From Methylophilus sp. (lineage in GTDB: Bacteria > Pseudomonadota > Gammaproteobacteria > Burkholderiales > Methylophilaceae): a stretch of 64,000 nt of DNA. Numbering within the stretch: the stretch's first letter is position 1; each line of letters begins with the position of its first letter. The translations under genes and the position numbers were made by a program. The stretch is from assembly GCF_008015755.1 (NCBI RefSeq), contig NZ_SSGF01000006.1:62001-126000 (forward strand), written 5' to 3'. Positions 16,048 to 64,000 of the stretch are shown here, one piece after another. The notes under the pieces are model-generated. The model made no database searches, was not told the origin of the DNA, and was given only the letters and a program-made list of their open reading frames with translations.

Positions 16048-16063
16048 CTCCATTCACACTCAG

Positions 16064-16636: not shown

Positions 16637-16652
16637 TTATTGAATTGCAACC

Positions 16653-18572
16653 ATGCTTAAACTCCATCCAAAATTATTGTCTTTTTTGGCTTTTCTGCAT
16701 GATGCCATCGTAGTCATTGCTGCCTGGCTGATGGCGTTTGCACTTCGTTTTAATTTCCATATCCCTAATCAATTCGTCAGTTTTTTCTTTCAAAGCCTCC
16801 CAATTATCTTCATTTTTCATAGTATTTGCTTCTACAGTTTTGGTTTGTACAAAGGCGTTTGGCGCTTTGCCAGCCTGCCTGACTTAAAACGCATTATGCG
16901 TGCTGTGGCATTTGCTGCGCTACTGAGCGCCACCTTTGCCTTATTGGTACACCCTTCAATCGTCATTCCACGCTCGGTACTAATTCTAAACCCCATGTTA
17001 TTGCTGTTAACCATGGGCGGCAGCCGCTTTATTTATCGCGCCTGGAAAGAGCGCCGTTTGTTTAACGGCATTGCGCTGCAAGGCAAACCTGTGATTGTGA
17101 TTGGTGTTGAAGACGCTTCGTTTAACCTGATTAAAGAGCTGAGCAAAAACCCTGAGTGGCGCGTGGTGGCGATGGTTGACCCTAGCAACAAGTTGGTCGG
17201 GCGAGAGATCATGCACACCAAGGTCGAGGGCGGCTTGGAGGATATGGCGCAGATTGCGGCGCGTCACAACTGCCAGCACTGCATGATTGCAATGCCGGGG
17301 AGTAGACATGAAAAGCGTCGCATGGCGGTTGAGGCAGCGCGTAAAGTCGAGGGCATGGAGGTGTTGACCTTGCCTGCGATGTCGGATCTGATCAGTGGCC
17401 GGATTAGCTTATCGCAGATTCGCAAGATTGATGTAGAGGATTTGCTTGGCCGTGATGTGGTGCAGTTGGATACACATGGCTTAAGCAGTATGCTGGCAAA
17501 TAAAGTGGTGTTGGTGTCTGGTGCCGCTGGCTCGATTGGCTCTGAGTTGTGTCGGCAGATATTGAGTTTTCACCCTGCGCAATTGATTTGTCTGGATATT
17601 TCAGAGTATGCGCTTTATACGCTCCAGCAGGAATTTAGCCAATGGGTGACAGATACCGAGCTGGTTTACCTGGTGGCCGATGTGAAAAACCAGACGCGTA
17701 TTCAGCGCATTTTACAAAGCCATCAACCTGACGTGGTCTTGCATGCTGGCGCTTACAAGCATGTGCCGATGATGGAGCATTTTAATGTGGTGGAGGCCTT
17801 GCAAAACAATGCGCATGGCACTTACCAGATTGCGGCGGCTTGCCAGGCGGCAGGGGTGCCGACGTTTGTCTTGGTATCCACCGATAAAGCCGTTAACCCG
17901 ACGAATGTCATGGGGGCCAGCAAACGATTGGCAGAGCTCATTTGTCAGGGCTTGCAACATGCCGACAGTAGCAATACTCGCTTTATCACCGTGCGCTTTG
18001 GCAATGTGTTGGGCAGCAGTGGCAGCGTGATCCCCAAGTTCCGTGAGCAGATCGCGCACGGCGGGCCACTGACGATTACTCATCCTGACATCACGCGTTA
18101 CTTTATGTCTATCCCCGAGGCAGCCCAGTTGGTGTTGCAAGCCGCGACCATGGGCAATGGCGGCGAAGTGTTTGTGCTGGATATGGGCACACCGGTGAAG
18201 ATTATTGATCTGGCGCGCGACATGATTAAATTATCTGGCTTGCAAGAACAAGAAATTCGCATTGAATTTACCGGATTACGCCCAGGCGAAAAACTCTATG
18301 AAGAGCTGCTGGCAGATGATGAAAACACCCTGCCGACCAGCCACGAAAAATTACGCATTGCACAAGCGCGAAGCGCAGATACGCTTTGGTTAAGTAACTT
18401 GCTGGAGTGGCTGGCAAGCGTGCCACATTTACAAGAAGTGCAAATCAAGCAAGACTTACAGCGTTGGGTAGAAGAATACCAACCGGATACGCGCCCGGCG
18501 CCTGATGTTTCTTTGCGTGGTGGCGTGTTATCACTGGACACCCTGCCCTCACCTTCGCAGCATATACACTGA
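16653..18572 (+). CDS. UDP-HexNAc 4,6-dehydratase, membrane type (WbpM/PglF/CapD family)
   Basis: A 639-residue protein with the WbpM layout. There are about four N-terminal membrane segments (residues 10-125), a first Rossmann domain (VIVIGVEDASF near 145), then the catalytic extended-SDR domain with VSGAAGSIGSELCRQ (near 288) and VSTDKAVNPTNVMGASKRLAE. The catalytic position reads MxxxK instead of YxxxK, the known variant for this family. It should convert UDP-GlcNAc to UDP-4-keto-6-deoxy-HexNAc. Its base composition is closer to the housekeeping genes than the AT-rich cluster start, so this end may be older. Confidence 0.9.
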   Translation: MLKLHPKLLSFLAFLHDAIVVIAAWLMAFALRFNFHIPNQFVSFFFQSLPIIFIFHSICFYSFGLYKGVWRFASLPDLKRIMRAVAFAALLSATFALLVHPSIVIPRSVLILNPMLLLLTMGGSRFIYRAWKERRLFNGIALQGKPVIVIGVEDASFNLIKELSKNPEWRVVAMVDPSNKLVGREIMHTKVEGGLEDMAQIAARHNCQHCMIAMPGSRHEKRRMAVEAARKVEGMEVLTLPAMSDLISGRISLSQIRKIDVEDLLGRDVVQLDTHGLSSMLANKVVLVSGAAGSIGSELCRQILSFHPAQLICLDISEYALYTLQQEFSQWVTDTELVYLVADVKNQTRIQRILQSHQPDVVLHAGAYKHVPMMEHFNVVEALQNNAHGTYQIAAACQAAGVPTFVLVSTDKAVNPTNVMGASKRLAELICQGLQHADSSNTRFITVRFGNVLGSSGSVIPKFREQIAHGGPLTITHPDITRYFMSIPEAAQLVLQAATMGNGGEVFVLDMGTPVKIIDLARDMIKLSGLQEQEIRIEFTGLRPGEKLYEELLADDENTLPTSHEKLRIAQARSADTLWLSNLLEWLASVPHLQEVQIKQDLQRWVEEYQPDTRPAPDVSLRGGVLSLDTLPSPSQHIH

Positions 18573-49442: not shown

Positions 49443-50240
49443 TTAACCTCTCAGCAATGTCATCACTTGGTTAGGCAACTGGTTCGCTTGAGCCAGCATC
49501 GCAGTACCAGCTTGTTGCAGAATCTGTGCACGTGTCATCTTGGCTGTTTCTGAAGCAAAGTCAGCATCAGTGATACGTGACTTAGCAGCAGACATGTTCT
49601 CAGAAGCCACACCCAGGTTGCTGACCACTGAAGCAAAACGGTTTTGGTAAGCACCCAATGTCGCACGGCTGGTGTTCACTGTCGTCAGTTGTGCGTCAAT
49701 CGCTGTAATCGCAGATGATGCAGCAGCAGCTGAAGACAGGGAACCGGACAGAGAAGCTGCTGACACAGATGACACGCTAATCGTATCGCCACTGTCTGCA
49801 CCGATCTGGAAGTTATAACCAGCACCGAATGCAGCTTGACCGTTAAACTTGGTTGCAGTACCCAAACGTGTCAGTTCTGATTTCAGTTGTGAAAATTCTG
49901 TATCCAGGTTTGCACGGTCACCAGAGCTGTAAGAACCGTTAGCTGCTTGTACAGCCAGTTCACGCATACGTTGTAAGGCATCAGTTGCGCTGCTCAAACC
50001 ACCTTCTGCAGTTTGCAGGAAAGAGATCGCGTCGTTGGCGTTACGTGTTGCAACATCCATGCCGCGAACTTGTGAGTCCATACGGGTTGCAATCGCCATA
50101 CCAGCCGCATCGTCTTTAGCGCTGTTGATACGCAGACCAGAAGACAAGCGTTGAATAGAAGTATTCAGGCTGCCTTGTGAAGCGTTTAAGTTACGTTGTG
50201 CATTCAAGGATGCCAAGTTGGTGTTGATTACTGAAGCCAT
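49443..50240 (-). CDS. fliC: Flagellin FliC
   Basis: A 265-residue flagellin. The D0/D1 ends are conserved: MASVINTNLASLNAQRNLNASQGSLNTSIQRLSSGLRINSAKDDAAGMAI and RITDADFASETAKMTRAQILQQAGTAMLAQANQLPNQVMTLLRG. The variable middle is very short and serine-rich (SVSSVSAASLSGSLSSAAAASS, residues 156-176), offering several surface hydroxyls for O-glycosylation. AAGGAGAT precedes the ATG, and a sigma-28 promoter lies ~115 bases upstream. The genes beyond, on both strands, are glycosylation or phosphonate genes, so modification is likely. Confidence 0.95.
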   Translation of the reverse strand: MASVINTNLASLNAQRNLNASQGSLNTSIQRLSSGLRINSAKDDAAGMAIATRMDSQVRGMDVATRNANDAISFLQTAEGGLSSATDALQRMRELAVQAANGSYSSGDRANLDTEFSQLKSELTRLGTATKFNGQAAFGAGYNFQIGADSGDTISVSSVSAASLSGSLSSAAAASSAITAIDAQLTTVNTSRATLGAYQNRFASVVSNLGVASENMSAAKSRITDADFASETAKMTRAQILQQAGTAMLAQANQLPNQVMTLLRG

Positions 50241-50353
50241 GTTAAATCTCCTTTAGAGTCGTATATCCAGTTAAGTGTCAAATCGTCATATTACTTTCAA
50301 CGTTGATCGCTATTTACCACTTAATGTTTGCTATCTAGCGTTGTTAGTTGTGT

Positions 50354-50380
50354 TATCGACCGCTTCTGAAATTTCTTTAA
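50354..50380 (-). promoter_or_regulatory. Sigma-28 (FliA) promoter of fliC
   Basis: On the minus strand: TAAA, exactly 15 bases, GTCGATAA, differing from GCCGATAA at one position. It predicts a 5' leader of roughly 105 bases before the fliC ATG, which carries a good Shine-Dalgarno sequence. Confidence 0.85.
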
Positions 50381-50688: not shown

Positions 50689-50706
50689 ATACCTTATATA
50701 AGGTAT
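50689..50706. promoter_or_regulatory. Perfect 18-bp palindrome ahead of the phosphonate operon
   Basis: ATACCTTATATAAGGTAT is a perfect inverted repeat with no spacer, ending 24 bases before the first ATG of the operon. Its centre TATATA could serve as a -10 box, so the palindrome may be an operator overlapping the promoter. The regulator is unknown. Confidence 0.55.
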
Positions 50707-50730: not shown

Positions 50731-52029
50731 ATGGCATCAGTTTATGTAGGGATGACGGTAGACATCTTGCACCATGGCCATATCAATATTATTGAGCAGG
50801 CCAGAAAGTATGGCGACGTTACCATCGGCCTGTTATCAGACGCCGCGGTGGCAGACCATAAACGTCTGCCTTACCTGACTTATGAACAGCGCAAACAGAT
50901 CGTCAGCAATATTCGCGGCGTGGTGAACGTGGTGCCGCAGGAAGAATGGGACTACGCGCCTAACCTGCTCAAATACAAACCCGACATCATGGTGCATGGC
51001 GACGACTGGCTGGAAGGCCCATTGGTGCCCTACCGTGACCGTGCGCGTGCCGCCCTGGCTGAATATGGCGGCCATTTAATTGAGATTCCTTATACACGCG
51101 GCGTGTCTTCTAATGAAATGCTGGGCCAAATCCAGGCGCTGGGCACCACGCCGGATATTCGCCGCCGCACCCTGAAAAGATTACTCACGGTCAAACCGAT
51201 TTCGCGCTTTATTGAAGCGCACAACCCGATCTCTGCCCTGATTGCCGAACACGCCACCGCACAGCGCAATGGCAAAACCTGCCAGTTTGACGGCTTCTGG
51301 TCGAGCTCTTTGACTGACTCTACCGCCCGCGGCAAGCCGGATATTGAAGCGGTCGAAATCAACAGCCGTTTGTCGAATATTAATGACATTTTTGATGTCA
51401 CCACCAAACCTTTAATTATGGATGCTGACACCGGTGGCAAACTGGAGCACTTTGAACTCAATGTGCGCAGCATGGAACGCCTGGGCATTTCCGCCACCAT
51501 TATTGAAGACAAGATTGGTTTAAAAAAGAATTCTTTATTTGGCAATGAAGTGCCACAGTTACAGGACGAGATTGAGCCGTTTTGCGAAAAAATCATGGCA
51601 GGTCGTGCTGCGCGTGTCAGCGATGACTTTATGGTCATTGCCCGTATCGAGAGCCTGATTCTCGATAAAGGTATGGCAGATGCGGTGAAGCGCGCACAAG
51701 CCTATGTCGGTGCAGGCGTAGATGGCGTCATGATACACAGTCGCCAAAAGTCACCTGATGAAGTATTTGAGTTTGCCAAAATCTTTAAATCAGAGTTTCC
51801 GACCACGCCATTGGTGTGCGTCCCAACCAGTTACAACATGGTGACAGAAGAAGAATTGGCTTTACGTGGATTCAACCTGGTGATTTATGCCAACCACATG
51901 ATGCGCGCAGCTTATCCGGCCATGCAAAATGCGGCGATAGAAATCCTTAAAAATGGCAGGACCGCAGAAATCGAATCCAACCTGATGTCGATTAACGATG
52001 TGCTGGAACTGATTCCAGGCACCAAATAA
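50731..52029 (+). CDS. aepX: Cytidylyltransferase-phosphoenolpyruvate mutase fusion
   Basis: A 432-residue two-domain protein. Residues 1-140 are a TagD/GCT-type cytidylyltransferase: VYVGMTVDILHHGHINIIEQARKYG with the HxGH motif, and PYTRGVSSNEML in place of RTxGISTT. Residues ~155-430 are a PEP mutase: FDGFWSSSLTDS, PLIMDADTGG, and IIEDKIGLKKNSLFG, an exact EDKX5NS signature that separates PEP mutases from isocitrate-lyase relatives. The mutase makes phosphonopyruvate from PEP; the other half should activate a phosphonate as a CMP ester. Nucleotidyltransferase-PEP mutase fusions are known. AAGGAG lies 8 bases before the ATG. It heads the operon. Confidence 0.92.
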   Translation: MASVYVGMTVDILHHGHINIIEQARKYGDVTIGLLSDAAVADHKRLPYLTYEQRKQIVSNIRGVVNVVPQEEWDYAPNLLKYKPDIMVHGDDWLEGPLVPYRDRARAALAEYGGHLIEIPYTRGVSSNEMLGQIQALGTTPDIRRRTLKRLLTVKPISRFIEAHNPISALIAEHATAQRNGKTCQFDGFWSSSLTDSTARGKPDIEAVEINSRLSNINDIFDVTTKPLIMDADTGGKLEHFELNVRSMERLGISATIIEDKIGLKKNSLFGNEVPQLQDEIEPFCEKIMAGRAARVSDDFMVIARIESLILDKGMADAVKRAQAYVGAGVDGVMIHSRQKSPDEVFEFAKIFKSEFPTTPLVCVPTSYNMVTEEELALRGFNLVIYANHMMRAAYPAMQNAAIEILKNGRTAEIESNLMSINDVLELIPGTK

Positions 52030-52053
52030 CCGTCACCACATAAGCGGAGCATC

Positions 52054-53232
52054 ATGATGATACCAGCCGAGGCATTTTTAAGCGCATTACAAACCGAGCA
52101 GGTGCAGTTTTTTGCCGGTGTGCCAGACTCACTGCTCAAAGAGTTGTGCGCCTGCTTTTCAGACACGCTGGCGACAGGTCAGCATGTGATTGCTGCCAAC
52201 GAAGGCGGCGCAATTGGCCTGGCGATTGGTCATTACCTGGCCACGCATCAGCCTGCGCTGGTCTATATGCAAAACTCCGGCCTGGGCAATGTGATCAACC
52301 CGATTGTGTCACTGGCAGATCCACAGGTGTATGGCATTCCGATGTTGCTGGTGGTTGGCTGGCGCGGTGAACTCAATGCGCAAGGTGAACAAATCCATGA
52401 TGAACCGCAGCACGTAAAACAGGGCCAGATTACCTTGTCACAACTTGATGTGCTGGGCTTACCTTATCAAGTGATGGCCGAGGACATAGCCACGGCGCAT
52501 GCGCAAATCAACACCTTATTGCAGCAAGCGATGACTCGCCAAGGTCCGGTCGCATTGGTGGTGCGCAAGCAAAGTTTTGCGCCGTATAAATCGGTGAAAA
52601 CAAGCACGGCCCCCGCCTCAACCCTGGCAGATAAATTACCCGTGCTGCACAGCCGTGAACAGATGATTGAACAAATTGTGTCTGCCTTGCCAGAAGAGGC
52701 TGCCGTGGTAGCGACCACCGGCATGGCCTCACGTGAACTATTTGAACTGCGCAAAGCGCAACAGGCCGGACACGGCCGTGACTTTCTCACCGTTGGCGGC
52801 ATGGGCCATGCCTCGCAAATTGCCTGTGGCATTGCGCTGGCACAACCAGAGCGACAAGTGGTGTGTATTGATGGCGATGGCGCCCTGCTCATGCATATGG
52901 GCAGCCTCACCATCAGTGCCCAGCAGGCGAACTTGCTGCACATTGTGCTGAACAATGGCGCGCATGACTCCGTGGGTGGTCAACCCACAGTAGCTGCACA
53001 ATTGACACTGGCTGAGATTGCCAGTGCCGCAGGCTACGGGCAGGTCTACAGCGTGTCTGGCACAGAATCATTAAACACTGCCTTGCAACAAGCCCTGGTC
53101 AGTGGCAAAAGCAGTTTTATTGAAGTGCTATGCCGTAAAGGGGCGCGGGCTGACCTGGGTCGCCCGACGCGCACCCCGGCCCAAAACAAACAAGATTTCA
53201 TGCAGTTTTTAACCGAGGTGGAATATGCCTGA
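52054..53232 (+). CDS. aepY: Phosphonopyruvate decarboxylase
   Basis: A 392-residue ThDP-dependent enzyme. The N-terminus has VQFFAGVPDSLLKELCACFSD and AANEGGAIGLAIGHYLAT with the catalytic Glu. The ThDP-binding motif is GDGALLMHMGSLTISAQQANLLHIVLNNGAHDSVGGQPT. It converts phosphonopyruvate to phosphonoacetaldehyde, the irreversible step that pulls the PEP mutase reaction forward. It lies 24 bases after the mutase gene and overlaps the transaminase gene by 8 bases. Confidence 0.93.
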   Translation: MMIPAEAFLSALQTEQVQFFAGVPDSLLKELCACFSDTLATGQHVIAANEGGAIGLAIGHYLATHQPALVYMQNSGLGNVINPIVSLADPQVYGIPMLLVVGWRGELNAQGEQIHDEPQHVKQGQITLSQLDVLGLPYQVMAEDIATAHAQINTLLQQAMTRQGPVALVVRKQSFAPYKSVKTSTAPASTLADKLPVLHSREQMIEQIVSALPEEAAVVATTGMASRELFELRKAQQAGHGRDFLTVGGMGHASQIACGIALAQPERQVVCIDGDGALLMHMGSLTISAQQANLLHIVLNNGAHDSVGGQPTVAAQLTLAEIASAAGYGQVYSVSGTESLNTALQQALVSGKSSFIEVLCRKGARADLGRPTRTPAQNKQDFMQFLTEVEYA

Positions 53233-54220
53233 AGCATCGTCTAGCATACACGCCCATGTGGCCACACAAAACCAGCACAAAGTGCTGTTCACAGCCGGGC
53301 CTGCGAGCTTGCTCGAAGAAAACCTGCTTGGATTGCGCCCTTGTTTTGGCCGTGGTGATGTAGATTACAATCAGGTAGAAGATGCGGTATTAAGCGCGCT
53401 CAAAACCATGACAGGGCACACACAGATTGCGCGCCTGCAAGGCTCAGCCAGCCTGGCGCTGGAAATCGCCAGTCTGAACTTTTTACACGGCAAGGTACTG
53501 GTCATCGACAGTGGGTATTACGCCCAGCGATTAGCCAGCTTTGCGCAACTGGCGCAACGCACGGCAGGTGAAGTGTCACTGGTCACCGTCTGCGACTGGC
53601 AGCAATTGACCAATGTCAGCGGTAAATATGACTGGGTCGTCGCCTGCTACACCGAAACCAGCGCCGGTTTATTACTGCCCATAGAGGATTTACGCGCCCT
53701 GGCAGACCGTGTCGGCGCGCAGCTGATGCTGGATGCCACCGCCTCTATCGGCCTCGAAGCCGATCACAATCTGGCTGATGTGATTGCCTACAGCTCCTGC
53801 AAAGGCCTGTTTGGTCTCACCGGTGCCTCATTTATTGCGTTTAACCAGTTACCCAAACACGAGGTCGACTCGTTTTACCTTAACCTGGCCACACATCTCG
53901 AACGCCGCATGACTGGCCCTTATCATGCCATCGCCTCTTTATATGAAGTGTTGCCCAAGCATACCGATTTGCGCGAAGCCGTGTTTATCAACAAGGCGCA
54001 GATGCTGAAGAAAATTGCCGCTTACACCACCCACCCTGTGCATTATCAACCAGTGCTATGCACCTGGGTCGATGCCAAGGTCAGCAGCCAGGATGCGCGC
54101 GCCGTGCTTTACCAGCCACGCGGCATCAGCCGTGGCAGCGTGGTGTGCCATTTAGGCGAAGCACACCTGGGTAGTACCGCACGCGGCGCCATCCTCGATT
54201 TACTGGAGTTACAGCCATGA
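53225..54220 (+). CDS. 2-aminoethylphosphonate-type transaminase (class V)
   Basis: A 331-residue PLP enzyme of the class V aminotransferase family. VLFTAGPASLLEENLLGLRPCFGRGD is the N-terminal pattern seen in 2-AEP and serine-pyruvate transaminases; LMLDATASIGLEADH has the cofactor-binding Asp, and IAYSSCKGLFGLTGASF carries the PLP lysine. Directly after mutase and decarboxylase, it should make 2-aminoethylphosphonate from phosphonoacetaldehyde. It is a little shorter than PhnW (~360-370 residues) and may belong to a separate biosynthetic subfamily. Its stop overlaps the next ATG (ATGA). Confidence 0.87.
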   Translation: MPEASSSIHAHVATQNQHKVLFTAGPASLLEENLLGLRPCFGRGDVDYNQVEDAVLSALKTMTGHTQIARLQGSASLALEIASLNFLHGKVLVIDSGYYAQRLASFAQLAQRTAGEVSLVTVCDWQQLTNVSGKYDWVVACYTETSAGLLLPIEDLRALADRVGAQLMLDATASIGLEADHNLADVIAYSSCKGLFGLTGASFIAFNQLPKHEVDSFYLNLATHLERRMTGPYHAIASLYEVLPKHTDLREAVFINKAQMLKKIAAYTTHPVHYQPVLCTWVDAKVSSQDARAVLYQPRGISRGSVVCHLGEAHLGSTARGAILDLLELQP

Positions 54221-54630
54221 TGCAGCCAGCAAAACGCATTATGGTCGATATGTCAGCCACGCTGATCCACCACGGCCACGTGCGCCTGTTAAAAGCCGCC
54301 AAACAACTAGGCCATGTGGTGGTGGCCTTAACCACCGACGAAGAAATCCGCGCCAAGAAAGGCTACGAGCCCGAGCTGGATTATGCTGCCCGTGCCGAGG
54401 TGTTACTGGCCATGCGCGATGTCGACGAAGTCGTGCCTAGCCCCTGGCTGCTCGATGAAGCCTTTTTGCAACAACACAAGATAGACCTGCTGGTGCATGG
54501 CCACGACAACAGTAATCCGATTGCAGCCGACAAGCTATATATTTTGCCACGCACCGAAGGCATCAGCAGCACCTTGTTGCGTGCCCGCGTGCTCAAAGCC
54601 GTCAGTCAAAAAATGGAAGCAAACACATGA
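54217..54630 (+). CDS. Second TagD/GCT-like cytidylyltransferase
   Basis: A 137-residue stand-alone nucleotidyltransferase. MVDMSATLIHHGHVRLLKAAKQLGHVVVALTTDEEI contains the HxGH motif and RTEGISSTLLRARV is the C-terminal RTxGISTT motif, both in consensus form. The family joins CTP to a phosphorylated alcohol such as glycerol-3-phosphate. The operon therefore has two such domains, the other fused to PEP mutase, so either two substrates are activated or one copy has diverged. ATGA overlaps at both ends show strict translational coupling. Confidence 0.88.
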   Translation: MMQPAKRIMVDMSATLIHHGHVRLLKAAKQLGHVVVALTTDEEIRAKKGYEPELDYAARAEVLLAMRDVDEVVPSPWLLDEAFLQQHKIDLLVHGHDNSNPIAADKLYILPRTEGISSTLLRARVLKAVSQKMEANT

Positions 54631-55325
54631 GTAACCTCTGGCAACAGATTTGGGAAAAACGTACGCTGCAACCGCAACACGCCATCACGCTGGATACCTT
54701 GATTGCGCTCGATGGCTTTGACAGCGGCGCAGGCAAAATCAACCTGGCAGACTGGCAGGAATATACCCGCCGTATCAGTGACAAACTGGGACTTAAGTCT
54801 GGCGACTCAGTGTTTGAAGTCGGTTGCGGTGCTGGGGCGTTTTTATACGCCTTGCGCCAGCAACACAGCCTGACGGTGGGTGGCCTCGATTATGCCGCCG
54901 GACTCATAGAAGCCGCCCAGCAAGCCATGCCGGATGGTGACTTCCAGGCGCAATCTGCGCAAACCATGGCCACCGAGCCGCAATATGATTTTGTGATCGC
55001 CAACAGCGTGTTTCATTATTTTGATGAAGCCATGGCAGCCCAGGTGTTCCAGGCTATGTGGCAAAAAGCCAGAGTTGGCGTCGCCATTCTCGATATTCCG
55101 CATGCCGCGACGCGCGACGCCTGCGAGCACGCCCGCCGCGATGCGCTGAGCATTGCCGAATATGAAGAAAAATACCGTGGCTTGCACCACACCTATTACA
55201 CGCCTGAGTGGTTTAGCCAGCAATTGCCAACCAAACCACAGCAGGTATTTGAAAGCTGCGTGCCAAATTACGCACAAAGCCAATACCGTTTCAGTGTTAT
55301 TTTTACTAAACGCTTGCATGGATAA
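54627..55325 (+). CDS. Class I SAM-dependent methyltransferase of the phosphonate operon
   Basis: A 232-residue methyltransferase with motif I VFEVGCGAGAFLYALRQQ (near residue 62), GGLDYAAGLIEAAQQAM and YDFVIANSVFHYFDEAMAAQV. It has no membrane segments. The position between a cytidylyltransferase and a CDP-alcohol transferase suggests methylation of the phosphonate or its nucleotide-activated form, for instance N-methylation of 2-aminoethylphosphonate. That substrate is an inference. It starts in an ATGA overlap and ends 6 bases before the next gene. Confidence 0.83.
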   Translation: MSNLWQQIWEKRTLQPQHAITLDTLIALDGFDSGAGKINLADWQEYTRRISDKLGLKSGDSVFEVGCGAGAFLYALRQQHSLTVGGLDYAAGLIEAAQQAMPDGDFQAQSAQTMATEPQYDFVIANSVFHYFDEAMAAQVFQAMWQKARVGVAILDIPHAATRDACEHARRDALSIAEYEEKYRGLHHTYYTPEWFSQQLPTKPQQVFESCVPNYAQSQYRFSVIFTKRLHG

Positions 55326-55331
55326 GCCATC

Positions 55332-56720
55332 ATGACGACTACCCCACACCAACCCGTGTTTACTTTCTTTTATACCGACAACTGCGAGCGCCAGGCCTTA
55401 GCGCCGGTGGCCGATGAGATCGCCAGCAGAGGCTATGTGATTCAATGGAGCACCAACTCCAAGCAATATGCTGAGGTCGGAGTGTATTGTGAGCACGCGT
55501 GCAAACCGAATGCCGGATTTTCCGTCATCCTGCTACATGACCTGGCGCAGCGCCATGATATCTGGCCACACTTCTGGCATCACGAACCATGGTCGGCGTT
55601 TGATATCGGCGTGGTGCCTGGCCCAGCCTGGGTTGAGCGCTGGCAGACACAAGCCAATTTTAAGCAGGCACAGCCCAAATTAGGCATGTTTGACCTCGGT
55701 TGGCCCAAAGCCGACCTGGTCTACCGCAACCAGGACACCTTTAAACAGGAGGCGCAAAAACTGCGTGAACAACTGGGCCTGAAATATGAGCACTCCATCC
55801 TCTATGCGCCCTCCTGGGAGAACCATGGCAAGCAGGATGAGTTTGTACAGGCCCTGAAAGACTTACCAGTCAACTTGCTGTTAAAACAAGCGCCCTGGTC
55901 AGACAAATATCGCTGGGTGCTGAATAATATTGACGAGATGGACGCCCTGCATCGCAATTACGCCGACAACGTGTATGTCGTCGATCGCGAAATCAGCATC
56001 ATGTATTGCTTAGGCCTGGCCGATGTCATGGTCTCGGATGAGTCCAGTGTGCTGACAGAAGCCTTGCTGCTGGATGTGCCTGGCATTGCCGTCACCGACT
56101 GGTTGATTCCAGACACTAATCCACCACGTCCGGCCAGTGTGCCCTACGACTATGTAATTAAAACCGTGAAAGCCGACTTGCGCCGCACGGTTGAAGACGT
56201 GTTGCAAAACGCCGCCGTCTATCAACAACAGATCACAGAAAACAAACAACATCAGTTTGCCAACCTAGGCCAAAGTGCAACCTTGATTGCCGATAACATT
56301 CTCGCTGCCCTCGCTGGCGCAACAGAATTGCCGACACCAGCGATCAAATCCCAGGTAGAGATTGACCGCAACACGTATCACTATGCAGAAAAACTGGCCG
56401 CCGAAGGTGATTTGAAATTGTCGACGCAAGTCATGCTGGAGTTGATTAAAAAAGAAAGCTGCTGCTGGGAGCCCTACAATGACCTGGGCACCTTGTTGGT
56501 CAGCCAGGGCCAATTTGAAGATGCTGAGCTGTTGCTTGAAAAAGCCGTGCTGCTGGCACAAGAAAATGCCACGATCCCCCTCAGCAACCTGACTGAGGTG
56601 TATTGCCTGCAAGAAAAAGCCGACAAAGCCTTGCTGACCCTGGCCAAACTCAGTCAATACACACCTAACCCGGTTGGTTCTATTCCGCATATCCGCCGTT
56701 GCATGGAAACCATGTTTTAA
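55332..56720 (+). CDS. TagB/TagF-like CDP-alcohol phosphotransferase with C-terminal TPRs
   Basis: A 462-residue protein. Residues ~1-345 resemble the CDP-glycerol glycerophosphotransferase (TagB/TagF) family: LYAPSWENHGKQDEF, VYVVDREISIMYCLGLADVMVSDESSVLTEALLLDVPGIAVTDW, with the conserved SDESSVLTEALLLD nucleotide-site motif. Residues ~350-460 are TPR-like: WEPYNDLGTLLVSQGQFEDAELLLEKAVLLAQ. It should transfer a phospho- or phosphono-CMP-activated group to an acceptor. TPRs are unusual in TagF relatives and match the TPR-based flagellin transferases across the terminators, suggesting a protein or glycoprotein acceptor. Confidence 0.83.
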   Translation: MTTTPHQPVFTFFYTDNCERQALAPVADEIASRGYVIQWSTNSKQYAEVGVYCEHACKPNAGFSVILLHDLAQRHDIWPHFWHHEPWSAFDIGVVPGPAWVERWQTQANFKQAQPKLGMFDLGWPKADLVYRNQDTFKQEAQKLREQLGLKYEHSILYAPSWENHGKQDEFVQALKDLPVNLLLKQAPWSDKYRWVLNNIDEMDALHRNYADNVYVVDREISIMYCLGLADVMVSDESSVLTEALLLDVPGIAVTDWLIPDTNPPRPASVPYDYVIKTVKADLRRTVEDVLQNAAVYQQQITENKQHQFANLGQSATLIADNILAALAGATELPTPAIKSQVEIDRNTYHYAEKLAAEGDLKLSTQVMLELIKKESCCWEPYNDLGTLLVSQGQFEDAELLLEKAVLLAQENATIPLSNLTEVYCLQEKADKALLTLAKLSQYTPNPVGSIPHIRRCMETMF

Positions 56721-56823: not shown

Positions 56824-56849
56824 AAGCATGCACATCACTGTGCATGCTT
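56824..56849 (-). terminator. Rho-independent terminator of the giant glycosyltransferase gene
   Basis: AAGCATGCACA (56824-56834) and TGTGCATGCTT (56839-56849) form an 11-bp stem with a TCAC loop. On the minus strand the stem runs into TTTTTTG, a good intrinsic terminator just after the 56869 stop. Confidence 0.9.
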
Positions 56850-56868: not shown

Positions 56869-59800
56869 TTATGTAAACAATTGACGTACCGGCAACTCGG
56901 CACGCGTAAACTCAGCGGTGAGGCCATTCACCACATGCTCTGGTGAACCCTGTGTCATGTTCTGCAAACGGTTAAACACGCTAATCAAGGCCTGCAATTG
57001 ATCATCACGATAATGGTAGCCATTGGCCTCCAGCACCGCCAGCGTCAAGCTGCCAAGGTTGGTTGGCGTGCTGGCATGCGGTTTACCGCAACTACGCACG
57101 CGATGCAAAGTGAGGAACAAACCACGCAAGGCAACAAACGCCACTGGCAGCGGGATTGCAAAGTCCCATTCCAGGTCAAAGAAATGGCCTTGGCCGTTTT
57201 TGTCCATGACAAAGTTGGTCGGGGTGGCGTCAAAATACTGCGAAGGCAACAAGGCCGAATAGCCTGCAAATTCCGGCAAGGTTTTGCCGCCGGTCAGCGC
57301 AGCCGCTTCCAGGCCTTGCAACCATGGCGCAGCCCACGCTGCTAAATCTTCTACACGCCAACCTGGGCGGTTCATCAACTGGGTCAGTTTGTCCATCCAC
57401 AACTGACCGCCATGGTAAGGCGCATGCTCCCAATCGGCTTGCAGCAATTGCGCCGTTTCGCCGGTATTGCGCGTACGGGTGGCCAGGCCTTGTGCATCAT
57501 GCACAAACTGGGTTTCTTTGCTAAACACGGCCTGGCGCTGGCAGCCATAATGTGCTGCCAAGACGTCCGGATGCAATTTTCCAGACTGACGTTGCGGATA
57601 AGCGACAAACATAAAGGAGTTAGCCACATCTTCTACCAGGTTATTGCGTGCAATCACCTGCCAGGCATTTTCTAATGAGAAGGTCGGGTGACGTGGCGAT
57701 TGTCTGTCATGCACCACTGAACCAGCGGCTAAGGCACCGACATCCCAACCTGCGGCACGGTGAGCCTGGTTAAAGCCCTCAGGATAAATCACGCTGACTG
57801 GGGTTTTGTAATCAGGCAATGGTACGTAAAGCTCTGTCGTTTCAAAACCGGCGCTGCGAATCAAGGCATCCAGCTCTACTCGGCCAAACGTGATCGGGCT
57901 GGTTGTGCTGTAAGAATCATTAATGCCATACATGGCCTGCCCCATGTGGTCTTCAGGCGCGCCGCAGAAATACTTGAGGCCGAGCTGGTTTTCAATCGCC
58001 ACAATCAGCATGCCATCTTCTTTAAGGAAAGACTTGGCTGTTTGCAGCAAAAAGCGCAAAGGATCAGCTTCTTTGACATAGACCTGCGCATATTCAAGCA
58101 CGCCAATCAGCGTCACCACATCAAACTTTTCGTCAGTTTCAAACGCCTGGATGAGGTCAGAATAAATGGTCACATTATTTAGGTCTGCACAACGCTGGCC
58201 AATCACGCGTGCACGGTTTGGGCTGCCTTCCAGCGCGACCACTTCGCCCCCCAACTCACCGAGGAAACGCGTAATTGCACCACAACCTGCCCCTAGTTCG
58301 AGCACTTTACCGTTAGCAATTTTGTCAGCAAACGGGCGCAGCAAATTGGCACGCTGTGAAGTGAGGTGATAGTAGCTAGGCCAGTCTGTGGCTTTGGCCG
58401 CCAACTCACTTGAAAACACGCTCTTGTCACGAGACTGGCGGATCATGTCATACAGGCGCTGTTCGGCATTGCCTACATCCTGGTAGCCAAATGCTTCGTT
58501 TTGCGCACGCTGGTAAAAATTGTCTTCCGCACGGTAAATATACGGACCTTTACGCACAGCATCCGCTGCTGGCTGGCTGTACTGCTGTTGCAGTGCATCG
58601 GCATCGGCCGCAGCCAGGCCATTCTGGCGGGCAAATGTGATGACATCCAGCACCTCATTTTTTGGCGCGGTCAGTGACAACACCTCAATATAGGCTTGCC
58701 AATAGGCCGGTTGTTTTGGAGCCAGGATCACCGCTTGCTCCAGCAATGGCAATACCTCTTCTGCCTTGCCTGCTTGCTGTGCCAGCAAGCCCAATTGGTA
58801 ATAAGTCGGCGCATGTTTGTCATCAATGCGCAAAATTTCCTGATAAAAGTGCATCGCCTGGGCCAAGTCGCCTTTTTCCTGCATCTGCAGTGCCTGCTGA
58901 AACACTTCAGTAATCGAGTCTTGCAGTGCGCTAGCTTGTGGGTTTAGTGTTGTATTCATGGGGATACCTTTATCAGAGGGTTCAGTCGCGCCCAGCGCAA
59001 CAGAAGGTTCTTTCAGCGTTAAAGAGGGAATAGCAAAACTGCTCGCAGCCTGCCCCTGGCACCAGCGCTGCCACATCTGGCGCATGGCCTGTGACAGGGA
59101 CTGTGCCAATGGCGCAGGCTGTGCCAGCGGAGACTGCGTAAAAAGGGTGCGCATCGTGGCGCGTAAATCAGCCAATGCCTGCAGATCAGACAACACCTGC
59201 GCGGCCTGTTGTACATAGTGCGTTGGGCTTGCGGCAATATAGTCATTCAAGCCCAGATGCTGCATCAAGGCCATGGCACCACGGCTAGCCAGGCGATCAC
59301 CTGCCACACACAGCGTAGGCACGCCCATCCATAAAGCATGCGCGGTCGTGGTCACGCCGTTAGACGGAAAGGTGTCCAGGCAAATATCCACCTGATGATA
59401 TTGCTGCAAATAACGCAGCATACCGGTGCGGGCATAAAACGATAAACGGTCTGCCGTGATGCCTGCCTCAGCAAACCATTGCTGCACATGCGCACAAGCG
59501 CCCGCCTCTGCCATGCCGCCCAACACCATGCGACTGCCAGCGTAGGCTTGCATCACGGCAGTCCATTGCTGCACCGTGGCCTGGGTAATTTTGTTGGGGC
59601 GGTTAAAGCAGCCAAAAGTGATATAGCCATTGCTGAGTGCAGGCAAAATATTCACATCCGGCGCTTGCGGATGCGGCACAAATGGCGCATTCACAGGCAA
59701 CTGCACCAGTTGCTCGGTAAACTGCTGGTCAAACTGCCCGGCAGGCAACAATGCACTGTCTGCCAGGTAATAATCGATTGACGTCAGGCCTGTGGTATTC

Positions 59801-62800
59801 AAATAGCCCAACCAACTGGCCTGCACCGGTGCCGGTTTTCTGGCGAAGGTTAGCAAACGGTTGCCGGCAGTATGGCCGGACAAATCCATCAGAATATCGA
59901 TCTGGTCTTGTCGGATAGTCTCAGCCAGCGCATCATCAGACAGATTTGAAACCACGCGCCATTGTTTGAAATACTGACGCATCTCGGCCGTGACTTCGTC
60001 TTCCAGGGTGTAATTGGCATAGGCAAACAGTTGTAATGTGTTGTCCTGCGCCAATCCAGGCAATACAGGCAACAGAAAATGCGCCACTGAATGCGCACGC
60101 AAATCGGCAGAGACAAACCCTACGCGTAGTGGCCGCTGTGCCTCACGCGTATTGCTATGCGGCCGCCAATCGGCTTTTAACGGTGCCTCATAGAGTGCGG
60201 CATAAGCCGTATGCGCTTGTAACAAGGCTTCGTTATCCACATGCGCGGCATGCGTCATGCAAAACAGCAAGTTGCTAAAGCAATCGGCATACTGCGGCTG
60301 CAAGCGCAGCGCCTGTTTGAATTGCTTGATGGCTTCATCGACCTCGCCCAAATCTTTGAGCACACTGCCCAGATTGTTATACGCCGCGGCGTAGTCTGGT
60401 TTCAGGTGTATGGCCTGGGCAAAGGCGTCTGCAGCCGCATTGAGATCATTTTGCGCCTTGAGCACTAGCCCGTAGTAGCAATGCTCTTCAGCGCTGTGCT
60501 TATTCAGCGCCAGTGCATTGCTGGCCGCGGTTCGTGCATCTTTTTTCTGGATCATCAACACGTCTGACAGCATTTTCCAGCCACTGAGCCAGGCCGGATA
60601 TTGCTGCAATAGCGTGTGCAATTCACCTTCCATCTCGTCATATTGCTGTTGTTCGAACAAGCCAAGCAATGCGTGCTGGACTTGATCTGACGGCTGTACA
60701 TTAGTCGTTTGCACTGGCAACTGCCAGTCTTGCATCAGCGCTTGTAACGCCTGGGTATGCTGGCCGCTGTTAACGGCTTGCGCCACTACTTGCTCCAGCT
60801 CAGCTGTTGCATCGCTGTGTTTGAGTGCCGACAGATAGCTGCTTAATAACTGCCACTGACTTGGGGCCAGCGCATACGCCTGTGCCAGCAAATGCAAGGC
60901 CTCTGTTGGCTGTTGGTTGTGCCAATAAATCAAGCCCAGATTATGTGTGGCGAGGGCGTGATGAGCATCTACTGCCAGAATTTCTTGGTAAAGCTGTGTG
61001 GCCGTGGCAAAGTCACCCTGCTGCTGCGCACTTGAGGCCAGGTCAAAGACCTCGGCCATAGCGGCCTGCATCGCTGGAGACGTAGTCTGTGCGACTGGCG
61101 TTGCCTCCCATTTTTGGTGGTAACTCACATAGGTTTCGCGCCAACGGGCACTGCCAAACGCGCCGCCACTCTGGTGTGTCATACGCACTGGCCACACGCC
61201 TAGTTTCAACCCGGCACGTGTCGCCGTGCGACAAAAATCCAAGTCATAAAAATGAAACTCAAACTGCTGGTCAAAACGGACACCGCTTTGTAATAAGGTC
61301 TGCTTGTGCGCGGCCAAAAATACGCCATCCATGAGCTGGCATTCGCCAGACACGTCGCCATAACTGGAGGCTGGCCCAAACGCATGCTGACCATGGCTGA
61401 CCGCGCCGCGCAAATATTTGGCATCATCCCAGGTGAATTGCAAATCGACAAAGCACCAACCAGGCTGACCTGCCTGCACTCTTGCATTGCCCGCAATGCC
61501 AATCACATCATAGTGGTCCAGGCCGCGCTGTATAGTGTGGACAAAGGTGTTTTCGTCCAGCCAGACATCATCGTGGATGAGTACCAGCAAAGCCTGGTCT
61601 GGCGCGGCGGAAATCGCTTCGTTAAACACTTGCGACAAACCACGTGTATTTTCATAAGCCACCACTGGCATCAAACGCTTATCCTGCTGCATATGGCGCT
61701 GGAGTGAGCGGCCAAGGGCAGATTCACCCCAGAAAGCTTGTTCTGTCATGCGCGTCGCGCTGACGATCCACACGGGCTGCTCACCGCTAAAAGCGTCCTG
61801 TACTGGCGACTCAGCCAGTAATTGTTGTGCTGTCAGCTGCGGCAGGGCCTGTTGCCATAACTTGAACAATAATTGCTCAAAGTCCTGGGCAAACTGGTCT
61901 GCATTCATCAAGGGCGAAGCTAAAACTTGCTGGCGCAGTTGTGCGCGCAAGGTTGCCAATGCAGCTAAATCACTGGTCAAGGCAATGGCTTTGCGCACGT
62001 AATCCTCACGACTGTTGGCTACCCAGTCATGCAGGCCTGCGCAATGCATCAAGCTTGCGCCTTGGCGGGCGATTAATGTTTCGCCCAGCAACGTCAGTGT
62101 AGGCACGCCCATCCACAAAGCTTCACAGGTTGTGGTGCCGCCAGTAAACGGGAAGGTATCCAGAATCACATCAATCTGGTGATGGTTACGCAGGTATTCA
62201 TCTCTGGGCACCATGCCATGCAAAGTGCAACGCTCAGGGGAAATGCCATATTGCTGCAATCTGGCGAGCGCTTCTGCGCGTACCAAGCCATCATTAAAGG
62301 CTTTGGTTTGCCAGAACAGTTTGGCCGTTGGCAAGGCTTGCATTACCTCGCCCCAGCAAGACAATACGTCATCGCTGACCTTGCTGTAGTTTTGAAAACA
62401 ACCAAAGTTGATGGCGCCGTTAGTCAGTGCAGGCAAGTCATTGACAGCAATCTCAAACGGCGGCGCGGTAAAGCACATGCGCGTATGAGGCAGGTGCACT
62501 ACTTGCTCGGTGAATTGGATCGCGACCTGCGCATCGATACTGATGGGGTCGGCGATCACATAATCCATCACCGGCAAGCCAGTGGTTCCCCAATAGCCCA
62601 ACCAGGTTGCCTGCACGGGCGCAGGTTTATGGGCAAAAATAGGCAAACGTGTACCGCCGGACAAGCCTGATAAATCGAGCAGGATGTGAATCCCATCTTC
62701 ACGAATCTGTTTAGCGGCTTGTGCATCGGTCAACCCGGCCAATGAGCGCCACTGGTTGCAGAGGTCTTTCAGCTCATGTGAAAACGCATCTTCGCGGCCG

Positions 62801-64000
62801 TCAGTAGAGTAACCATAAATTTCTAGGCGGCTGGCATCAAACGCCTGCAACCATTGATGCAGAAAATAGCCCACCGGGTGTTTACGCAAGTCTGCAGACA
62901 CCAGGCCAATACGGAGTCGCTGCTCTTGTGCATGCACATGCCAGCTGTCATATGGCGTCACTTCCTGCATCATGGCAGCACCCAGTCTGTGCGCGTAATC
63001 TAGGCTCTCATGCAGCGGCAAGCTATTGCTATAACTGTTGGCAAATAACAGGTTTCTGAGCGCCATCATATGGGTGGGCGCGATCTGCAAGGCTTGTTTC
63101 AGGGTCGCAATCGCCGTGTCAATCTGCCCCATGTCCAAATACACATTAGCCAGGTTGATATAGCCCGGCATGAACTCAGGCTTGATGCGCAAGGCTTTTT
63201 CCAGGCAGGCTATCGCCTCGGTATAGCGGCCTAACATACGCAAGCTGATGCCGTAATTGCTCAAAATACTTTCTGACTCAGGCAGTTGCGTCAATGCTTT
63301 TTCGCAATAGACACAGGCTTTGTCATAAGCGTTTCTGGCATTCTCAATCAAGCCAAGATTAGCCTGCACATACGGGTTCTCAGGATCCAGCGCCAGTGCT
63401 TTCTGGCAATAATTTTCAGCCTCGCCGTATAACTGCTGGTTCAACATCTCGGTAGCCAGGTTATTCAGTGTCTCCGCACTCACCTCTTGCACCTGCATGA
63501 TCTGGTCAATATAAGCCTGATACTCGCGGGTACGGTGGGTCACACGGTAAAGTTTGGCCAGATTTTTGAGCAGAGACACCTCAGTTGGGTTTAACGCCAT
63601 ACCTGCCAGCAGCCACTGCTCAGCTTCTTCTACATCGCCATGCTTAAGGTATAAGGCACCGAGGTAGCTATAGGCCTCCACATAGTCTTTTTGCAACGCA
63701 ATCGTTTGCTGATAGGCGGCAATCGCTTCTGTCGTATTGCCCAGTTGGTCCAGCGCAAGCGCCATATTGAAAAAGATCACGGCATTGTCAGGCTCAATTG
63801 CCACCGCTTCGCGATAATACTGAATCGCCTCCAGCGGTTTTTCGGCCTCATGTAACAAGGTCGCCAGTTCAAAATTGACACGGCCATCTTGCTGGTGGAT
63901 ATTCAAGCCGCGGCGCAGTAACTTTTCTGCCTCTTTTAACTGACCCGTTTGCTTAAGCACACTGGCCCAGTTGGCATAGGCCTGGCTAAACACCGGGTTG
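56869..64000 (-). CDS. Giant TPR-OGT-GT2-TPR-OGT-TPR-methyltransferase (5' end outside window)
   Basis: At least 2374 residues and open to the window edge; the track start at 63993 is an internal GTG. Positions count from there. TPRs: 1-310. First SPINDLY/OGT domain (GT41): 355-715, with VSADLRKHPVGYF, YSKVSDDVL and DTFPFTGGTTTCEAL. GT2-like domain: 738-965 (VLIHDDVWLDENT, YDLDFCRTATRAG). TPRs: 975-1250. Second OGT domain: 1285-1640, with VSADLRAHSVAHF, NKITQATV and DTFPSNGVTTTAHAL. TPR: 1690-1760. Methyltransferase: 1890-2060 (VLELGAGCGAITRFLGELG). A tail to 2374 has DATPTNFV and GHFFDLEWDF, reminiscent of kinase-fold loops. Catalytic His and Lys equivalents look intact in both OGT units. 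Likely flagellin O-glycosylation; target inferred from position. Confidence 0.9.
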   Translation of the reverse strand, partial: NPVFSQAYANWASVLKQTGQLKEAEKLLRRGLNIHQQDGRVNFELATLLHEAEKPLEAIQYYREAVAIEPDNAVIFFNMALALDQLGNTTEAIAAYQQTIALQKDYVEAYSYLGALYLKHGDVEEAEQWLLAGMALNPTEVSLLKNLAKLYRVTHRTREYQAYIDQIMQVQEVSAETLNNLATEMLNQQLYGEAENYCQKALALDPENPYVQANLGLIENARNAYDKACVYCEKALTQLPESESILSNYGISLRMLGRYTEAIACLEKALRIKPEFMPGYINLANVYLDMGQIDTAIATLKQALQIAPTHMMALRNLLFANSYSNSLPLHESLDYAHRLGAAMMQEVTPYDSWHVHAQEQRLRIGLVSADLRKHPVGYFLHQWLQAFDASRLEIYGYSTDGREDAFSHELKDLCNQWRSLAGLTDAQAAKQIREDGIHILLDLSGLSGGTRLPIFAHKPAPVQATWLGYWGTTGLPVMDYVIADPISIDAQVAIQFTEQVVHLPHTRMCFTAPPFEIAVNDLPALTNGAINFGCFQNYSKVSDDVLSCWGEVMQALPTAKLFWQTKAFNDGLVRAEALARLQQYGISPERCTLHGMVPRDEYLRNHHQIDVILDTFPFTGGTTTCEALWMGVPTLTLLGETLIARQGASLMHCAGLHDWVANSREDYVRKAIALTSDLAALATLRAQLRQQVLASPLMNADQFAQDFEQLLFKLWQQALPQLTAQQLLAESPVQDAFSGEQPVWIVSATRMTEQAFWGESALGRSLQRHMQQDKRLMPVVAYENTRGLSQVFNEAISAAPDQALLVLIHDDVWLDENTFVHTIQRGLDHYDVIGIAGNARVQAGQPGWCFVDLQFTWDDAKYLRGAVSHGQHAFGPASSYGDVSGECQLMDGVFLAAHKQTLLQSGVRFDQQFEFHFYDLDFCRTATRAGLKLGVWPVRMTHQSGGAFGSARWRETYVSYHQKWEATPVAQTTSPAMQAAMAEVFDLASSAQQQGDFATATQLYQEILAVDAHHALATHNLGLIYWHNQQPTEALHLLAQAYALAPSQWQLLSSYLSALKHSDATAELEQVVAQAVNSGQHTQALQALMQDWQLPVQTTNVQPSDQVQHALLGLFEQQQYDEMEGELHTLLQQYPAWLSGWKMLSDVLMIQKKDARTAASNALALNKHSAEEHCYYGLVLKAQNDLNAAADAFAQAIHLKPDYAAAYNNLGSVLKDLGEVDEAIKQFKQALRLQPQYADCFSNLLFCMTHAAHVDNEALLQAHTAYAALYEAPLKADWRPHSNTREAQRPLRVGFVSADLRAHSVAHFLLPVLPGLAQDNTLQLFAYANYTLEDEVTAEMRQYFKQWRVVSNLSDDALAETIRQDQIDILMDLSGHTAGNRLLTFARKPAPVQASWLGYLNTTGLTSIDYYLADSALLPAGQFDQQFTEQLVQLPVNAPFVPHPQAPDVNILPALSNGYITFGCFNRPNKITQATVQQWTAVMQAYAGSRMVLGGMAEAGACAHVQQWFAEAGITADRLSFYARTGMLRYLQQYHQVDICLDTFPSNGVTTTAHALWMGVPTLCVAGDRLASRGAMALMQHLGLNDYIAASPTHYVQQAAQVLSDLQALADLRATMRTLFTQSPLAQPAPLAQSLSQAMRQMWQRWCQGQAASSFAIPSLTLKEPSVALGATEPSDKGIPMNTTLNPQASALQDSITEVFQQALQMQEKGDLAQAMHFYQEILRIDDKHAPTYYQLGLLAQQAGKAEEVLPLLEQAVILAPKQPAYWQAYIEVLSLTAPKNEVLDVITFARQNGLAAADADALQQQYSQPAADAVRKGPYIYRAEDNFYQRAQNEAFGYQDVGNAEQRLYDMIRQSRDKSVFSSELAAKATDWPSYYHLTSQRANLLRPFADKIANGKVLELGAGCGAITRFLGELGGEVVALEGSPNRARVIGQRCADLNNVTIYSDLIQAFETDEKFDVVTLIGVLEYAQVYVKEADPLRFLLQTAKSFLKEDGMLIVAIENQLGLKYFCGAPEDHMGQAMYGINDSYSTTSPITFGRVELDALIRSAGFETTELYVPLPDYKTPVSVIYPEGFNQAHRAAGWDVGALAAGSVVHDRQSPRHPTFSLENAWQVIARNNLVEDVANSFMFVAYPQRQSGKLHPDVLAAHYGCQRQAVFSKETQFVHDAQGLATRTRNTGETAQLLQADWEHAPYHGGQLWMDKLTQLMNRPGWRVEDLAAWAAPWLQGLEAAALTGGKTLPEFAGYSALLPSQYFDATPTNFVMDKNGQGHFFDLEWDFAIPLPVAFVALRGLFLTLHRVRSCGKPHASTPTNLGSLTLAVLEANGYHYRDDQLQALISVFNRLQNMTQGSPEHVVNGLTAEFTRAELPVRQLFT

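Follow-up and report, generated by a model that had tools for sequence, protein, structure and literature searches.

The six-gene operon beside the flagellin gene of Methylophilus sp. is probably a cassette for phosphonyl tailoring that was recruited to this site; its products would make 2-aminoethylphosphonate (AEP), probably N-methylate it, activate it with CTP and transfer it onto a flagellin sugar placed by an OGT-type enzyme. The modification proposed here would be a C–P counterpart of the C. difficile type A and P. aeruginosa b-type flagellin modifications. If this is correct, the operon provides a genetic basis for phosphonate-bearing flagella and points to organisms with the whole pathway at one locus. 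Phosphatases do not readily cleave C–P bonds, and such a coat could therefore influence how phages adsorb, grazing and innate recognition, as well as how much phosphorus is spent on a protein that is expressed at a high level.

Organization of the locus in Methylophilus

The window, i.e. the whole 64,000 nt stretch of DNA that was analysed, corresponds to positions 62,001–126,000 of the forward strand of NZ_SSGF01000006.1 (assembly GCF_008015755.1). The operon (50731–56720, + strand) is composed of six closely spaced open reading frames, the position and strand of which were verified. A GGAG ribosome-binding site precedes the first gene, and the distances between consecutive genes are, in operon order, a gap of 24 nt, overlaps of 8, 4 and 4 nt, and a gap of 6 nt. 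The flagellin gene fliC (49443–50240, − strand; 265 aa, PF00669/PF00700), which encodes the proposed acceptor and is followed by flaG, fliD and fliS, is divergent from the operon, and the gene for a giant OGT-type protein converges on it. An earlier note on this DNA had described six coupled genes in this arrangement, and the reading frames, strands and families confirm it.

The order fliS–fliD–flaG–fliC/operon/OGT is identical in all 11 PepM-positive Methylophilus genomes (the window genome and 10 of 10 congeners), and the dN/dS values of 0.02–0.09 for each operon gene in this genus indicate strong purifying selection; on the basis of the gene order in the congeners and these values, a chance arrangement was dismissed. 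The earlier note had counted a lack of conserved synteny with fliC in relatives as a refutation. This synteny is conserved across Methylophilus, whereas the operon was found in none of 15 other genera of the same family, so that the synteny is genus-wide and not beta-wide. Other Methylophilus congeners carry flagellin without the cassette. The G+C content, 50–56% for the operon and its neighbours, gave no clear signal of horizontal transfer.

A σ28-type promoter, TAAA-N15-GTCGATAA (50353–50379, − strand), precedes fliC in the window and in all 10 congeners. It was the only one found; a search of the operon strand gave none, and co-regulation of the operon with fliC is thus not obvious. A perfect 18 bp palindrome, ATACCTTATATAAGGTAT (50689–50706), lies upstream of the operon as a candidate operator and is kept in most, not all, congeners. 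A hairpin resembling an intrinsic terminator (56824–56849) separates the convergent operon and OGT gene, with such sites being about as numerous in the region as in shuffled sequences.

The lack of a σ28 promoter would also fit a rather unlikely alternative, in which the cassette makes CMP-AEP or a methylated form of it for LPS, capsule or another surface polysaccharide and its place beside fliC is a chance integration site. Known phosphonyl tailoring is mainly on glycans and lipids (PMC6697681), and the window itself holds an O-antigen-like cluster at ∼6.4–18.6 kb. However, polysaccharide genes adjoin the cassette in none of the 11 Methylophilus genomes, its sole immediate neighbours being fliC and the OGT-type gene.

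Predicted route to an activated phosphonate

The first gene (50731–52029, + strand) encodes an N-terminal HxGH cytidylyltransferase domain (CyT1; PF01467) fused to phosphoenolpyruvate mutase (PepM), with a TIGR02320 score of 410 bits against a cut-off of 319.6 and the sequence EDKIGLKKNS at the EDKX5NS motif, which is kept in every aligned CyT–PepM fusion. The second (52054–53232, + strand) encodes a ThDP-type phosphonopyruvate decarboxylase (Ppd; TIGR03297, 480 bits against a cut-off of 312.5). These strong family matches support the assignment of the first two steps, in which PepM would convert PEP to phosphonopyruvate and Ppd would convert phosphonopyruvate to phosphonoacetaldehyde.

The third gene (53225–54220, + strand) encodes a class V PLP aminotransferase, the proposed transaminase AepT, which would form AEP from phosphonoacetaldehyde. 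Its PF00266 score is barely above the cut-off, its best NCBIfam match is PhnW-AepZ, and it is shorter than the PhnW family and scores well below the corresponding models (77.8 against 361 bits for TIGR03301 and 62.3 against 401 bits for TIGR02326). A moderate structure model (pTM 0.64, TM-scores of around 0.5), used for the fold class only, matched 7e7g, 1m32 and 6pd1, with AEP aminotransferases among the best structural matches. This fold and the lysine of SSCKG, K193, which is invariant in the alignments, fit a class V PLP aminotransferase, so that PhnW-like action is possible, yet the protein is not filed as PhnW. Its role as the AEP-forming enzyme is supported by homology, albeit through a remote family call, and by comparison across lineages.

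The fourth gene (54217–54630, + strand) encodes a second cytidylyltransferase, CyT2 (PF01467, CTP_transf_like), in which the HxGH and RTxGIS[ST]T signature is complete (HHGH and RTEGISST) and which was aligned to glycerol-3-phosphate cytidylyltransferase (1coz) and ethanolamine-phosphate cytidylyltransferase (3elb). The two TagD-like domains of the earlier note are indeed two PF01467 cytidylyltransferases, although the first is a domain of the mutase protein and not a separate gene. AepT and CyT2 co-occur in five lineages, where they replace the usual alcohol dehydrogenase, and are fused together in one of them, L093, a 1.5 Mb gammaproteobacterium. The fused CyT1 has lost active-site residues in three of these five lineages, compared with none of 77 other sequences. 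Homology and this comparison support CyT2, a putative CTP:(N-methyl)AEP cytidylyltransferase, as the most likely enzyme to form the CMP-phosphonate from CTP; CyT1 would be either a remnant of a hydroxyethylphosphonate (HEP) version or a helper. The exchange of alcohol dehydrogenase for AepT and CyT2 in five lineages is new here, as is the loss of CyT1 residues in three of them. The exchange represents a natural experiment on changing phosphonate surface chemistry, from HEP to AEP, and predicts which CyT domain is active.

The Methylophilus CyT1 retains the main catalytic residues H14, H17, K44, R45 and S126, which favours a different assignment, judged improbable, in which the phosphonate on flagellin is activated by CyT1, while CyT2 and the methyltransferase belong to a different step, such as the addition of a second phospho-substituent or the methylation of a sugar or protein. 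Against this stand the tie of CyT2 to AepT in five lineages, including the one fusion, the decay of CyT1 in three, and M. rhizosphaerae, in which CyT1 is separated from PepM at a UAG–AUG junction. The in-frame TAG in that species had been considered as the mark of a pseudogene, which was rejected, since both frames are intact on either side of the junction.

The order of the CyT and PepM domains and the CyT family are those of Fom1 in fosfomycin biosynthesis (PMC6697681), and the closest solved structure to the fused CyT domain is 5x3d, annotated as PEP phosphomutase. This architecture would suit an operon making a secreted small phosphonate natural product, an explanation to which we give very little weight: the operon contains no exporter, resistance, amide-bond or ligase gene, it ends with a TagF-like transferase, and its gene content is that of the cassette in a surface-glycan-type locus of L179, a Pelagibacteraceae SAG. 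Unlike Fom1, the CyT of which acts on HEP, the operon lacks an alcohol dehydrogenase and contains a transaminase and a second CyT.

Methylation, transfer and flagellin as the putative acceptor

The fifth gene (54627–55325, + strand; PF13649) encodes a class I SAM methyltransferase, the proposed AEP N-methyltransferase, which would probably add one or more N-methyl groups to AEP before or after activation. Apart from weak PDB matches to the phosphoethanolamine N-methyltransferases 5wp4 and 5wp5, its matches are generic, which leaves some room for the assignment of CyT1 as the activating enzyme. Homologues that could link it to the Pseudomonas b-type cluster were absent at 1e-12 from 56 genomes of the genus Stutzerimonas, an uninformative result given that none of these genomes is known to carry that cluster.

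The last gene (55332–56720, + strand) encodes a TagF/CD0244-like phosphotransferase with a C-terminal TPR tail, for which we propose the activity of a CMP-phosphonate:glycan phosphonotransferase. The match to PF04464 (Glyphos_transf) is remote, covering only part of the domain with a score of 29.9 bits (cut-off 22.1), and the protein also matches the TagF-like structure of Cps3D (8qoy; E = 4e-4); its structure model is poor (mean pLDDT 40) and was left out of the evidence. This predicted enzyme would act in the cytoplasm, transferring the phosphonate to a sugar already on FliC. Of the three lineages compared, the TPR tail is present in Methylophilus alone and is missing from the homologues of L179 and L093, which argues against a role in LPS or capsule.

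That sugar would be placed on FliC before export by the giant OGT-type protein (56869–63999, − strand, running ∼422 nt past the window), a proposed flagellin glycosyltransferase of ∼2,500 aa in full length (a frame of ∼2,518 aa) with TPRs of several families, two GT41 domains (PF13844, 353.8 bits) and a methyltransferase domain. TPR–glycosyltransferase proteins can bind and glycosylate flagellin, as in Caulobacter FlmG, the TPR of which binds flagellin (PMC7591256). The two proteins share a combination of TPR and GT-B-type transferase, but differ in the size, second GT41 domain and methyltransferase domain of the Methylophilus protein. The giant OGT gene also occurs without the cassette, adjacent to fliC in one genome (G011) and 10–15 kb away in two others (G015 and G021), as expected if the cassette decorates a pre-existing flagellin sugar.

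In C. difficile (cd0240–0244) and P. aeruginosa (pa1088–1091), a cytidylyltransferase, an N-methyltransferase and a TagF-like protein are proposed to act together in attaching a phospho-amino acid, an amine-bearing phospho group activated with CTP, to the sugar of flagellin (PMC10714395, PMC11833859). The type A locus of the former and the b-type locus of P. aeruginosa PAO1 resemble that of Methylophilus in combining these three with a glycosyltransferase at the flagellin locus, by functional type only. The donor in Methylophilus is a predicted phosphonate formed by PepM, Ppd and AepT, in place of phosphothreonine; the ThrH-like phosphotransferase (CD0241/PA1089) is absent from the operon. The cytidylyltransferases are of the HxGH type rather than LicC-like, and the glycosyltransferase belongs to GT41/OGT rather than GT2. 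The gene content of pnt clusters (PEP mutase, cytidylyltransferase and transferase) is also present, with a putative surface acceptor. In those systems PEP mutase is fused or linked to an AEP-activating cytidylyltransferase for surface glycans, and a cytidylyltransferase–transaminase fusion is possible (PntC-AEPT, 6pd1), as in L093. However, the characterized PntC has a PF12804/LicC fold, whereas both Methylophilus cytidylyltransferases belong to PF01467 and the locus is flagellar.

The route from PEP to AEP, CMP activation, methylation and transfer given in the earlier note is supported by the families, the class V PLP fold match and the comparison of lineages, with methylation and transfer being steps that we infer. 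Its suggestion that phosphonate-decorated flagella would be new was overstated and partly wrong: AEP was reported on the C. difficile flagellin glycan in 2022, with some GlcNAc carrying AEP (PMC8861647), and phosphonate moieties appear among flagellin glycan parts in a 2025 review (PMC12645811). Unlike Methylophilus, C. difficile lacks PepM, which leaves its source of AEP unexplained. A literature search, mostly without subscription papers, found no account of PepM or a dedicated C–P biosynthesis operon at a flagellin locus.

Phosphonate operons in other lineages

Close relatives of the cassette occur without flagellar neighbours, in surface-polysaccharide-type loci, in L093, L179 and L117 (a Balneolaceae MAG), the neighbours in L093 being LicD, GT25 and an O-antigen-ligase-like gene. 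The module is thus not flagellin-specific, which favours the LPS or capsule explanation. The recurrence of phosphonate operons in flagellin islands elsewhere counts against it. Related HEP-type operons were found within 18 kb of flagellin in four gammaproteobacterial genera (Alteromonas, Paraglaciecola, Nitrincola and Stutzerimonas), an arrangement that is new here. Of the 17 genomes examined, nine have an independent phosphonate operon no more than 18 kb from flagellin, corresponding to five of ten genera as grouped here, against a roughly estimated expectation of ∼2%, the gammaproteobacterial genomes sharing phylogeny and not being independent. In a class survey, no flagellin was found within ∼10 kb of PepM loci with longer (∼550 aa) frames.

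Similar gene sets in the flagellum-decorating islands of unrelated bacteria make C–P-coated flagella look like a recurring trait. The chances seem to us about even that phosphonate-bearing flagella recur among bacteria as a trait with its own biosynthesis genes, and that at least two chemical versions reached flagellin loci by independent recruitment: an AEP version with TagF-like and OGT-type proteins in Methylophilus and an HEP version in the four gammaproteobacterial genera. The earlier note had put forward flagellin or its glycan as the target; the synteny in Methylophilus and these flagellin islands strengthen flagellin as the putative acceptor, which is still reached by inference. The flagellin-linked operons of the HEP version are often accompanied by LicD, Maf and pseudaminic acid genes.

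The operon and its locus in Methylophilus

All six plus-strand open reading frames that the earlier note had claimed at window positions 50731–56720 are present as described, nearly contiguous or overlapping, with a ribosome-binding site 5′ of the first gene. Pfam and NCBIfam assign them to a fusion of a cytidylyltransferase domain (CyT1) with PepM, a phosphonopyruvate decarboxylase (Ppd), a class V aminotransferase (AepT), a separate PF01467 cytidylyltransferase (CyT2), a class I methyltransferase and a PF04464 (TagF-like) transferase with a TPR tail. Both CyT-PepM and Ppd score above the equivalog cut-offs, which makes their assignment secure. The aminotransferase, distantly related to PhnW, scores under every family cut-off; the expected lysine, K193 (in SSCKG), is invariant in an alignment of relatives at 40–92% identity, and the top PDB matches of its AlphaFold model are class V aminotransferases, led by the 2-aminoethylphosphonate (AEP):pyruvate aminotransferase 7e7g, with PntC-AEPT 6pd1 also among the matches. 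The three PDB matches of the methyltransferase are all weak, and two are phosphoethanolamine N-methyltransferases; since AEP is the C–P analogue of phosphoethanolamine, N-methylation of AEP is a reasonable guess.

The same locus is present in named records of M. aquaticus and M. rhizosphaerae. A homologue search located CyT-PepM in 11 of 22 Methylophilus genomes and in none of the family's 15 other genera or of the other-family genomes searched, and the TagF-like gene in 13 of the 22, the two additional genomes being fragmented assemblies. The order fliS-fliD-flaG-fliC, divergent operon and convergent gene for the giant OGT-type protein is kept in all ten congeners read, and every operon gene has pairwise dN/dS values of 0.02–0.09. 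The sigma-28 promoter of fliC is conserved; none was found for the operon. A perfect 18-bp palindrome, ATACCTTATATAAGGTAT, at window positions 50689–50706, just 5′ of the operon, is kept in most congeners and is a possible operator.

Cassette-free congeners still contain fliC where the assembly permits. In one of them (G011), a giant OGT homologue and a methyltransferase-like gene adjoin fliC, and in two others (G015 and G021) an OGT homologue lies 10–15 kb from fliC; the OGT–flagellin association is therefore independent of the cassette. The PepM-negative congener loci L080 (5331–10132) and L081 (9620–14427) each contain three consecutive flagellin genes; in L080, two of these are separated by a DegT-type sugar aminotransferase gene.

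Cassette types and the fused cytidylyltransferase domain

CyT-PepM fusions are common, with at least 588 stretches in the genome collection, 80 of which were read. Nearly all complete stretches carry an iron alcohol dehydrogenase (Fe-ADH), usually also with a Ppd match, the arrangement that would be expected for hydroxyethylphosphonate (HEP), as in fosfomycin biosynthesis, where the CyT domain of Fom1 activates HEP (PMC6697681). In five lineages, an AepT homologue and a free-standing CyT2 are present and Fe-ADH is absent: Methylophilus, a 1.5-Mb gammaproteobacterium (L093), a Balneolaceae MAG (L117), Puteibacter (L122) and a Pelagibacteraceae SAG (L179). In L093 (7108–8409), CyT2 and an AepT-type aminotransferase form a single 433-residue polypeptide, a PF01467 counterpart of the PntC-AEPT fusion, at a locus that also holds LicD, GT25-like and O-antigen-ligase-like genes. 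Another cassette variant is found in a Pseudomonadaceae-family genome (L232, 7887–10964): CyT-PepM occurs there together with a related methyltransferase (38%), while AepT is matched weakly and Ppd not at all.

In an alignment of CyT1 with 77 sequences from outside the CyT2 lineages, H14, H17, K44, R45 and S126 are invariant, as is D91 in 76 of the 77, that is, in all those readable there. K44 and R45 are lost in L093, H17 in L122 and D91 in L117. The association of residue loss with the presence of CyT2 has a Fisher P of 1e-4 for the five lineages and of 8e-6 when L120 is added, a partial near relative (77% identical, gene content not seen) that has lost H17. In our reading, activation passed to CyT2 upon the change of substrate from hydroxyethyl- to aminoethylphosphonate; for Methylophilus this takeover is tentative, because its CyT1 is still intact at these residues. 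In M. rhizosphaerae (L023, 8037–9335; L116, 10001–11299), a TAG followed directly by ATG (UAG-AUG) divides CyT-PepM at the linker and leaves two coupled intact frames.

Phosphonate operons near flagellin in other genera

The most interesting part is the recurrence of flagellin-linked phosphonate operons across genera. In Alteromonas lipotrueae a HEP-type operon (CyT-PepM, Ppd, Fe-ADH and LicD) comes immediately after the gene for a Maf flagellin glycosyltransferase (PF20157, 401 bits), and pseudaminic-acid-type genes lie upstream; the operon is followed by flagellin and then by fleQ-, fleS-, fleR-, fliE-, fliF- and fliG-like genes, the fle and pse names having been assigned by us from the sequences. 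Comparable settings, in which flagellin is no more than 18 kb away, occur in two more Alteromonas, two Paraglaciecola, another Alteromonadaceae, Nitrincola and two Stutzerimonas-genus genomes. The HEP-type operons near flagellin, often with LicD and mostly in Maf or pseudaminic-acid flagellin islands, lie in stretches L135 (9992–14499, with L201), L198, L199/L204, L206–L208, L211, L212, L217 and L227. The two Stutzerimonas-genus genomes showed just the phosphonate genes and a fliC-flaG-fliD-fliS block, with no Maf seen, and in Alteromonas G468 Maf is present and no flagellin was found within the stretch read. Xanthomonas, Aliidiomarina, Arenimonas, Methylonatrum and an Arcobacter were among those with no flagellin link in the stretch read.

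Flanking sequence was read for 17 genomes of this kind, and in nine of them the operon is flagellin-linked; by our grouping this corresponds to five of ten genera. Chance would bring one or two flagellin clusters within a random 20-kb reach in about 2% of cases in a genome of about 4.4 Mb, and against this expectation the binomial P is 4e-12 for genomes and 4e-7 for genera. Given the relatedness of the genomes, the roughness of the expectation and a sample taken from the closest matches, the result is a strong indication and not a proof.

Likely acceptor and known flagellin modifications

The earlier note had regarded phosphonate-decorated flagella as new. AEP on flagellin is already known chemically from C. 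difficile, an organism without PepM (PMC8861647). No phosphonate operon at a flagellin locus was found described in the literature searched. Marine bacteria, SAR11 among them, have been postulated to make phosphonoglycoproteins (PMC8931226).

The nearest worked-out logic for the operon is that of type A/b-type flagellin modification, in which a phospho-amino acid undergoes CTP activation, N-methylation and TagF-like transfer to a flagellin sugar (PMC10714395, PMC11833859). For these three steps the operon encodes enzymes of matching kinds, but it differs in its C–P biosynthesis front end, the fold of its cytidylyltransferase and its OGT-type sugar enzyme. Flagellin can be bound by TPR-glycosyltransferase proteins (FlmG; PMC7591256), and the TPR tail of the Methylophilus TagF-like protein, which the L093 and L179 homologues do not have, could likewise serve flagellin binding. 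From the position of the locus and these parallels we infer that flagellin would be the acceptor in Methylophilus. Upstream of the flagellar genes, window positions 6389–18572 hold a surface-polysaccharide-type cluster, judged from the starts of the sequences to encode a DegT aminotransferase, glycosyltransferases, a flippase-like protein, a sugar transferase and a CapD-like protein, which is a possible alternative acceptor pathway.
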